Source: Synechococcus sp. MVIR-18-1
GTDB taxonomy: Bacteria > Cyanobacteriota > Cyanobacteriia > PCC-6307 > Cyanobiaceae
Assembly: GCF_014279835.1 (NCBI RefSeq)
Contig: NZ_CP047942.1
Location: 2,294,001 to 2,358,000, forward strand
Reading direction: 5' to 3'
Length of the DNA: 64,000 bases
Shown: positions 42,337 to 46,733 of the stretch, piece by piece
Layout of the letters: the number at the start of each line of letters is the position of its first letter
Numbering within the stretch: position 1 is the stretch's first letter
The notes under the pieces: model-generated
Seen by the model: the letters and a program-made list of their open reading frames with translations, nothing else
Databases searched by the model: none
What the model was told of the DNA's origin: nothing
Translations under genes and position numbers: made by a program

Positions 42337-42858
42337 TCAGCCCAACCTGAGGCCTTCAGCCTGCCGTTTTGCCTTCTCGAGTTGCTCTTTCAGCAAGTCT
42401 TCATCGGTATGGCTGAGGTTGGTGTGGATCAACCGGGCGTGGGGCGCATGGCGACGCAAGCGCTCGATCACACGATCGGGCGTGGCATCCCTCACTAACA
42501 ACGCCAAAGCAGCACTGCCCTTCGGCAGGGTTTCCGCGAGTTCTTTCAAAAAGTTGTCGTTGATGCCCATGTCATTAAGCGAACCCGAGGCAGCACCAGC
42601 ACCGGCACCAACAGCGAGACCCAACAAAGGATTGGCAAACAACAAACCGATCAACAACCCCCAGAAGCTTCCGCCCATGGCTCCAGCCGCCGTCATATTG
42701 ATCGCCTGACGCAAGTGCACATGGCCGTCTTCTCCATGCTCAAGCACCACCGCATCCTCAAGCGCAATCAAATGCTCTTGCTGGATCGTGACCAATTCGC
42801 GACGGACCTCCTCCGCTTCTTGGGCCTTGGGAAAGCCCACAACCACCAAATTGCTCAT
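42337..42858 (-). CDS. DUF1269 membrane protein
   Basis: A 173-residue protein of the DUF1269 group. A soluble N-terminal part (MSNLVVVGFPKAQEAEEVRR) is followed by a Gly/Ala-rich double hydrophobic hairpin (MGGSFWGLLIGLLFANPL and LAVGAGAGAASG), then a soluble C-terminal domain containing ALALLVRD. The family is widespread, membrane-linked and of unknown function, and often stress-associated in bacteria. Confidence 0.85.
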   Translation of the reverse strand: MSNLVVVGFPKAQEAEEVRRELVTIQQEHLIALEDAVVLEHGEDGHVHLRQAINMTAAGAMGGSFWGLLIGLLFANPLLGLAVGAGAGAASGSLNDMGINDNFLKELAETLPKGSAALALLVRDATPDRVIERLRRHAPHARLIHTNLSHTDEDLLKEQLEKAKRQAEGLRLG

Positions 42859-42916: not shown

Positions 42917-43450
42917 TCAGTCTCGTCGCCTGCTGGAGCGAGGTAATGGACGTCTGGATGGGCCAGGGCCACGGGACACAGGCTGAGGCGCTGGCGTGAT
43001 TGCTGGGGGCGCTGCAGAACGGGACCAGCGCTCCACACGAAAGCTTTCGTCATCGGGCCAGCCGTTGTCATCCTCGCCGTAGGCGGGCTGAGGCTCAGGT
43101 ACGGGCGCCACAATCTGCTGCCCAACACCTTGCCGCCGTGAGATCGCATCGAGAGGCCGCTTACGACTGGATGCGGCAGGCGATTCAGTCCGCAGGGGTG
43201 GTTCAACCGGATCCCTCCAGTCTTCTTCTTCGTCCATCAGCCAATCGATCTTGTCGCCGACCCAGCGACCCACTGTTTCGAGATCCATTGAGGGACGCCC
43301 GCCACCGGCAGACCGTCGACCAGGTCGCGTGCCAGCCACACCATCCACCAGCTGACGACCGGTTTCAAGCCACTGATCCAATCGCCGATCACCAGAGTCC
43401 TGACTGCGCTGCCCCTGACTGCGCTGCCGCGGTTGAAAACGTCCATCCAT
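42917..43450 (-). CDS. Arg/Pro-rich protein of unknown function
   Basis: A 177-residue protein. A central helical segment (ETVGRWVGDKIDWLMDEEED) is flanked by low-complexity Arg-, Pro-, Ser- and Gln-rich ends, including a C-terminus GPSRRPLPRSSRRRD. The basic tails suggest binding to nucleic acid or membrane, but no family is known to me. It is the last gene of a leftward group with the 31-residue peptide gene (9-base gap) and the SprT-like gene. Confidence 0.6.
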   Translation of the reverse strand: MDGRFQPRQRSQGQRSQDSGDRRLDQWLETGRQLVDGVAGTRPGRRSAGGGRPSMDLETVGRWVGDKIDWLMDEEEDWRDPVEPPLRTESPAASSRKRPLDAISRRQGVGQQIVAPVPEPQPAYGEDDNGWPDDESFRVERWSRSAAPPAITPAPQPVSRGPGPSRRPLPRSSRRRD

Positions 43451-43459
43451 CCTCCGACC

Positions 43460-43555
43460 TTAACGACGACGCTGCTGCAGCCAACGCTCCCGTTGCCAAC
43501 CGATTAGCGCGATCGACACCCCACCTGCTTCTAGGACCCAAAGAAACAAATCCAT
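43460..43555 (-). CDS. 31-residue membrane peptide
   Basis: A complete frame MDLFLWVLEAGGVSIALIGW followed by a basic tail QRERWLQQRRR. It has one hydrophobic segment and then eleven residues with five arginines, the positive-inside signature of a small single-span protein. AGGA lies 5 bases before the ATG. The start is one base from the SprT-like stop (TGAGATG), and its own stop is 9 bases from the next start, so it fills the gap between two genes exactly. It is too short for ordinary ORF lists. Confidence 0.7.
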   Translation of the reverse strand: MDLFLWVLEAGGVSIALIGWQRERWLQQRRR

Positions 43556-43556
43556 C

Positions 43557-44105
43557 TCAATCCTGAGCGGGGGCAGGTACATAACTGAGTAGACAACTCA
43601 CATGCCAGTGACCGTCATGATGCCGATCACAGCACAACCTGCAAGCCGCTTGCCTAACCCGGCGCCGATATGGCGTGCGCTGCCCGCACATAGGGCAGAT
43701 AGCAATCCAGCGAGGGGGGGTCTGCTGAACCGGAAAACGATGGCGAATGCTCACCTTGAACCGGGATTGAGAGGCATTAATCACCTCCATCTGAGCCCGA
43801 AAACAAGGGCCATGCCCCTCCCGTTGACCCAACACCAAATCCACCCAGGCATGAATCATTTCATGACAAAGAGTGCTCTCGGTGGCGCAGCGAGGCAAGG
43901 GTTCCAGCAAGGGTTTTGAGAGCACAATCTCCCGTCCAAGCGGGGGAGCCACCGCCGGTCCGCGGCGATAAAAGCCTGCCGTCTTTCGCATCCGCCCATC
44001 ACTCCAACGCAAAGCAACCAGCGGGCCCGTGCCCCGCACAAGGCAGCCATCAAAGTGTTCTCGATTGAGCCTGTGAAACAACGGCAGCAGGGGCTCGAGG
44101 GGCAT
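43557..44105 (-). CDS. SprT-like zinc metalloprotein
   Basis: A 182-residue protein from ATG 44105. The zinc protease motif HEMIH is in CHEMIHAWVDLVLG (about residues 79-92), and a further His appears in GHGPCFRAQM. The C-terminus carries a zinc-ribbon-like set of cysteines (CPMCGQRTPY and CRLCCDRHH). SprT/SPRTN proteins cleave DNA-crosslinked proteins in eukaryotes, while bacterial members are poorly understood. In-frame starts at 44165 (ATG) and 44186 (GTG) are possible. Confidence 0.82.
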   Translation of the reverse strand: MPLEPLLPLFHRLNREHFDGCLVRGTGPLVALRWSDGRMRKTAGFYRRGPAVAPPLGREIVLSKPLLEPLPRCATESTLCHEMIHAWVDLVLGQREGHGPCFRAQMEVINASQSRFKVSIRHRFPVQQTPPRWIAICPMCGQRTPYRRRVRQAACRLCCDRHHDGHWHVSCLLSYVPAPAQD

Positions 44106-44194
44106 GGGGACTGCGAAAGAAGCCAAACAGGACGAAAGCCGGCTCAGTCTGCCTCGTTCCTGCATCCGGTCAGTCAGAATCTGCACTTATTCGG

Positions 44195-46733
<2,539 letters not shown>

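Follow-up and report, generated by a model that had tools for sequence, protein, structure and literature searches.

A conserved 31-residue, probably membrane-spanning peptide encoded between two larger genes in picocyanobacteria

Introduction

Picocyanobacteria account for a large share of ocean photosynthesis. At one locus of Synechococcus sp. MVIR-18-1, a frame of 31 codons lies between two larger genes, a placement found in both ocean and lake picocyanobacteria, and genes this short are easily missed in annotation. Is such a frame a genuine gene, and what might a product of this size do? The question was raised by a sequence-only reading of the window, the whole stretch of 64,000 nucleotides analyzed here, which lies within one 2.45 Mb contig (G000). 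The Cyanorak authors report that over 1,750 genes overlooked by automatic prediction, including petM and psbM, were added to that resource by hand (PMC7779031), so the peptide may be listed there as well.

The locus and its neighbors

The features of the locus, in window coordinates, are as follows.

43557..44105, minus strand: gene upstream, for an SprT-like metalloprotease that carries a zinc ribbon and an HEMIH motif (PF10263, PF17283)
43561..43564, minus strand: AGGA, a Shine-Dalgarno-like site within the end of the SprT-like gene (from sequence and from enrichment over 76 loci)
43460..43555 (stop included), minus strand: 31-codon gene for a single-helix, probably membrane-spanning small protein (from frame, conservation and helical periodicity)
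42917..43450, minus strand: gene downstream, for an orphan of 177 residues that prediction shows as largely disordered, apart from two helices; short motifs in it are conserved
42337..42858, minus strand: DUF1269 protein, 58 bases past the 177-residue gene, present in the compared stretch at 25 of 36 loci (context only)

Read on the minus strand from 43555 to 43460, the gene begins with ATG at 43555-43553, ends with TAA at 43462-43460 and encodes the 31-residue product MDLFLWVLEAGGVSIALIGWQRERWLQQRRR. The sequence-only reading had omitted the strand; stops interrupt the plus strand of the same 43460-43555 span. Its account of the spacing holds to the base, as the SprT-like TGA occupies 43559-43557, one base ahead of the ATG, and the TAA is followed, after nine bases (43459-43451), by the next ATG at 43450. 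The good ribosome site that it had claimed is likewise found: AGGA at 43564-43561 stands five bases ahead of the ATG, and a Shine-Dalgarno-like 4-mer lies upstream of codon 1 at 37 of 76 homologous loci, compared with 10.7 expected from shuffles, which leaves about half of the loci without one.

A longer, 40-residue reading from an in-frame ATG at 43582, nine codons upstream, was considered and rejected. That ATG lies within the SprT coding sequence and is confined to the closest clade, where 8 of 9 loci have it (L006 has TTG at the equivalent codon) and none of the remaining 27 loci in the comparison of starts does; for these two reasons the 31-residue start is preferred. Across loci the start codon is mostly ATG, with GTG and TTG also used, and in L026 and L029 position 1 is ATC, with an ATG three codons earlier giving an MAE or MLE prefix. 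The stop follows directly after residue 31 at every one of the 36 loci of the first set, and lengths in the second set of 40 loci run from 31 to 47 residues; among the named loci, L138 has an ambiguous base.

The upstream gene matches PF10263 (E 3.8e-23) and PF17283 (E 7.1e-7), and a longer form from a GTG at 44186 is possible. Its nearest named relatives, the window's own genome possibly being excluded from this comparison, are from marine Synechococcus, for example AG-686-F08 at 97% identity, and WH7803 (L111) also has the peptide. On the plus strand at 44195-44623, divergent from the SprT-like gene, lies a DUF4864-like protein of 142 residues (E 7.9e-7), which adjoins at 35 of 36 loci; the one locus without it, L012, is on a short contig.

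The fit between two genes, from which the sequence-only reading had argued for a real small protein, recurs widely. SprT-like gene, peptide gene and gene for the 177-residue protein follow one another on the same strand, with the peptide filling the gap, at 36 of 36 loci and at all 40 further loci. From this spacing, the peptide and the SprT-like protein are probably co-translated, and it is by spacing that the three genes may be called an operon. A promoter and terminator scan gave no promoter-like site (0.3 expected, by a pattern that picocyanobacterial promoters may not fit) and two terminator-like sites (2.1 expected).

A coding sequence under selection

Comparison of 32 coding sequences shows the pattern expected of a protein under constraint. 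Pooled pN/pS is 0.24 in the frame but 1.24 and 1.80 in the two alternative frames of the same alignment. Diversity at codon positions 1, 2 and 3 is 0.23, 0.13 and 0.43, and the median dN/dS, taken from the 191 pairs whose pS lies between 0 and 0.6, is 0.13. Between the window and L006 the peptide gene differs by 10 synonymous changes and no nonsynonymous change, and the best local matches of the flanking proteins of the same two loci are 85% (SprT-like) and 62% (downstream) identical. The sequence-only reading had proposed a conservation favoring synonymous changes as the check on its claim, and this is what these comparisons return. Mean identity to the window over 31 loci is 82.8% for the peptide, 81.5% for the SprT-like protein and 57.8% for the downstream protein, both flanking proteins being compared by local match; across the full 75 loci the values, obtained in the same way, are 68.9, 71.3 and 48.0%, so that SprT is slightly the better conserved of the two once distant relatives are included.

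Conservation is concentrated in particular residues. Among 102 distinct peptides (a set that excludes the divergent L081, L082 and L084), Gly-12, Ile-15, Gly-19 and Glu-23 are present in all, followed by Arg-22 in 100, Phe-4 in 99, Leu-26 in 98, Leu-8 in 95 and Arg-30 in 90; in 99, a Glu or Gln occupies position 9, midway along the span. The four invariant residues remain so in an alignment of 36 rows (A2) that includes divergent relatives. The conservation across genomes and the suppression of nonsynonymous change together exclude a chance frame and, on this comparative evidence, 43460-43555 is a genuine, selected protein gene.

These data also bear on the suggestion that the frame serves only as a leader or coupling device, passing ribosomes on from the SprT-like frame to the gene for the 177-residue protein and yielding no functional protein. 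Spacings of one and nine bases are indeed typical of translational coupling. For that purpose, however, a length and a stop would suffice, and neither the invariance of four residues across 102 distinct peptides nor the low rate of nonsynonymous change would be called for; moreover, the downstream gene is retained in genomes from which the peptide is missing. This explanation is therefore strongly disfavored and is given very little probability.

One helix with a conserved face

Along residues 4-31, conservation peaks at 100 degrees per residue, the period of an α-helix, a peak equaled within the helical band by none of 20,000 shuffles (55 rows); for residues 4-20 only, 25 of 20,000 equal it. 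On a helical wheel, positions 4, 8, 12, 15, 19, 22, 23, 26 and 30 all fall, by arithmetic, inside 100 degrees. AlphaFold likewise predicts a helix over residues 2-30 at a mean pLDDT of 94.0, which is weak evidence, since almost any such peptide comes out helical.

The description of the protein as one hydrophobic span with a strongly basic end agrees with its composition. In the window's copy the best 17-residue stretch, beginning at residue 3, has a mean hydropathy of 1.92, and residues 21-31 carry a net charge of +4. Over the 102 peptides the corresponding hydropathy averages 2.00 (range 1.32-2.74, some members being only moderately hydrophobic), the charge of residues 21-31 averages +4.0 (range +1 to +7), and the first eight residues have a charge of -1 or 0 in 101. 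The charge bias fits the positive-inside rule. One hydrophobic helix of membrane-spanning length combined with such a bias is expected of a single-pass small membrane protein, and this composition, with the predicted helix, suggests that the hydrophobic stretch spans the membrane and that the basic tail lies in the cytoplasm. The modest hydropathy of some members and the Glu or Gln at position 9 count against a membrane span.

Distribution and repeated loss

The peptide is found in the window's genome and in all 30 others of the genus that were searched (E <= 7.1e-7), as well as in five of six other genomes of the family (E <= 3.5e-5); the sixth, G036, which is 83% complete, has neither the peptide nor a SprT match. 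In 23 genomes outside the family the best match has an E of 0.2. Across the order, a profile built from the copies of the first genome set, whose genomes thus match by construction, finds 139 of 299 genomes at E <= 3e-4 and another 39 only at E 0.03-0.9, with 121 showing nothing at E <= 1. Each genome of the first set has a single significant place, and order-wide only G316 (contamination 3%) shows two. A class-wide search of 388 genomes with profile A2 gave four matches outside the family (E 0.0011-0.0078), about the number due to chance at a per-genome limit of 0.01, and these were not accepted as homologs; SprT, sought with no positive control in these four and in 17 more genomes from other families, was found in none of the 21. 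Nor did any of 23 genomes from beyond the family yield the 177-residue protein. At the sensitivity of these searches, none of the three proteins appears convincingly outside the family.

At 80 named loci found via the SprT-like protein, where the scan was limited to the surroundings of the SprT stop and the bases that follow it, the peptide is present in 71 and absent in 9. One of the nine, L174, is on a contig that ends 136 bases past the SprT stop; of the other eight, seven are titled Prochlorococcus and the eighth, L151, is an uncultured cyanobacterium. Of 20 family genomes chosen from those lacking a strong match, the SprT-like gene is present in 17, of which three carry a divergent form of the peptide and 14 no recognizable peptide. 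Both neighbors are kept at all 14 of these loci, the downstream match reaching residue 176 or 177 in 13, and the genomes are 1.6-2.0 Mb in size in 13 cases and 2.2 Mb in G154. As several Prochlorococcus lineages without the peptide keep the SprT-like and downstream proteins, the peptide is dispensable there. The sequence-only reading had held that loss of the frame in close relatives keeping both neighbors would count against it: in all 30 other genomes of the genus that were searched the frame is kept, and elsewhere in the family, mainly in small-genome Prochlorococcus, it has been lost while both neighbors stayed. Prochlorococcus-like loci that keep the SprT-like and downstream genes with the peptide absent or truncated include L127 (stop at codon 29), L154, L157, L163, L165, L167, L175 and L178.

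The estimated gap from SprT to the next gene is 40-115 bases at 20 of 22 peptide-less loci, such as a decayed gene would leave, and there is none in L091 and L178. Scored with the profile, these loci gave no significant match (best non-divergent E 0.058). Candidate remnants can be picked out by eye, such as LDVFLFLSLELFIFLM, which a stop follows in L090, but no claim is made for them. The divergent form, found in L067, L081, L082 and L084, shares the core xAEFLxGxxVSGxVISxxGxxRE; its frame opens within the SprT stop, and its tail is both longer and different. The copy in L082 scores E 0.053 on an incomplete stretch, and its membership rests on reading the frame. On a tree of 97 SprT proteins, with divergent copies counted as present, the fewest changes that suffice are 7, and 3 of them are required by branches with support; made by a quick method, this tree is weak, with 39 of 94 inner branches open.

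The downstream protein and a possible adaptor role

The 177-residue protein has no Pfam or NCBIfam match at E <= 0.01 and one insignificant PDB match (E 0.22), and its AlphaFold model has a mean pLDDT of 57.2, which is insufficient for searching by fold. Its conserved motifs are GRQxVDGVxGxRPGxR, GRWVxDKxDW, KRPLxAISRR, WPDxxSFRVxRWQR and RPLPRSSRRR, and it also has an acidic stretch. In overall build it resembles a scaffold with several docking sites.

Such a neighbor brings in the main rival to the role proposed below, in which the helix would serve as membrane anchor for the disordered 177-residue protein or for the SprT-like protease, its basic tail binding the acidic stretches of the former. 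The fixed gene order, the confinement of all three proteins to the family at the sensitivity used, and the short motifs and acidic stretch of the downstream protein are all in keeping with this. So is a contrast in one motif, AISRR or a near variant ending in RR, which occurs in 66 of the 70 peptide-bearing loci in which the motif was found, whereas in peptide-less loci it ends in LR in 17 of 21, RR in 3 and KR in 1. This contrast, however, is exploratory, having been chosen by eye after the alignment was viewed, and does not survive correction for relatedness (median sign-test p 1, from two independent pairs on branches with support). More directly, both neighbors survive at all 14 peptide-less loci, so that neither needs the peptide there. 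An adaptor role is thus possible but unlikely. An extended version, in which peptide, SprT-like protease and disordered multi-motif scaffold would act together at the membrane as a three-gene system peculiar to picocyanobacteria, streamlined Prochlorococcus having dropped the anchor while the scaffold shifted from AISRR to AISLR, is rather improbable.

Proposed role

The reading favored here, with a probability of roughly 0.57, is that the peptide is a family-restricted single-helix membrane protein that may act as a helper subunit, docking one conserved face on a membrane partner. It would form one continuous α-helix in which residues 3-20 or so cross the membrane and the basic tail, residues 21-31, lies on the cytoplasmic side. 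The face made up of Phe-4, Leu-8, Gly-12, Ile-15, Gly-19, Arg-22, Glu-23, Leu-26 and Arg-30, a 100-degree arc, would dock along its whole length on the partner, with Gly-12 and Gly-19 permitting close helix packing within the membrane and Arg-22, Glu-23 and the tail making contacts just outside it. A helix docked in this manner would work like the one-helix accessory subunits of membrane complexes and, as they do, might tune or stabilize a larger membrane protein. An accessory subunit of a membrane protein or complex is the most economical reading of these features.

The conserved face fits a homo-oligomer as well as it fits a docked subunit. The peptide might therefore assemble with itself and act on the membrane directly, like stress-linked or type I toxin-like peptides; two invariant glycines seven residues apart on one face and a polar residue at position 9 would suit self-packing. 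Searches brush against toxins in the same vein, the best Pfam match being Hol_Tox (E 0.042) and an NCBIfam match being the Fst toxin (E 1.5), but each involves one of 23 members and neither is significant. Type I toxin loci usually stand alone and have an antisense RNA. The single significant place per genome in the first genome set and the fixed chromosomal site speak against this reading, as does the phage side: tblastn of the window's copy in a phage collection gave no match at E <= 1. The best PHROGs match (E 0.091, two of 23 members) is insignificant. Self-assembly is accordingly regarded as distinctly improbable.

The peptide offers a clear handle, with four invariant residues and a repeated absence under genome streamlining: the conserved face names the residues to change, and the natural losses name what to compare. 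Among the literature matches listed, no title or abstract opening names the peptide.

Comparison with known systems

The small subunits PetL, PetN, PsbT and PsaM each consist of one hydrophobic helix and are conserved. The peptide has the same build and falls within their length range of 29-32 residues (PMC5126843), and such subunits are plentiful in cyanobacteria. A special case of the accessory-subunit reading would accordingly make it a lineage-specific subunit, so far unrecognized, of photosystem II, the cytochrome b6f complex or NDH-1. PDB sequences, however, gave no match to the peptide profile (A1) at E <= 10, so that no known complex is implicated, and Pfam and NCBIfam gave no significant match. 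Nor does the peptide follow the distribution of PsbU and PsbV in 33 chosen genomes: no PsbU is seen in nine that bear the peptide, two of which are less than 90% complete, and G086 lacks the peptide but carries both PsbU and PsbV. This special case is doubtful; unlike the established subunits, the peptide is found here in one family only and is absent from many Prochlorococcus.

Likewise, the CydX-type small subunits of bacterial oxidases, as described in one account (PMC4325964), are short, conserved members of membrane complexes that are hard to annotate. The peptide shares their shortness, conservation and elusiveness in annotation, but its neighbors are not a membrane enzyme and it has no significant match in PDB, Pfam or NCBIfam. 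PSHCP offers a further parallel as a group-specific, very conserved, small basic protein with a fixed place in the genome, for which ribosome association has been hypothesized by its authors. It differs in lying between rpl19 and gltX, in being present in MED4 and in combining an α-helix with strands.

A parallel of equal size is Norf4 of Synechocystis, described as a highly conserved protein of 31 residues with one predicted span that lay outside earlier annotation (PMC5126843). It has the same length as the peptide, and both have one predicted membrane span and are highly conserved. According to the same paper, Norf4 has no homologs in the α-cyanobacteria (mainly marine Synechococcus and Prochlorococcus), a pI of 5.59 and a transcript that overlaps gap1 (PMC5126843). 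Its ends as translated from the published primers, MTADQLL at the start and FAKGG at the finish, are without the RE..L..RRR tail of the peptide. In the features compared, namely ends, pI, distribution and neighbors, the two differ. Most likely, then, the peptide represents a further family of small cyanobacterial membrane proteins of the Norf4 type rather than a new kind of system.
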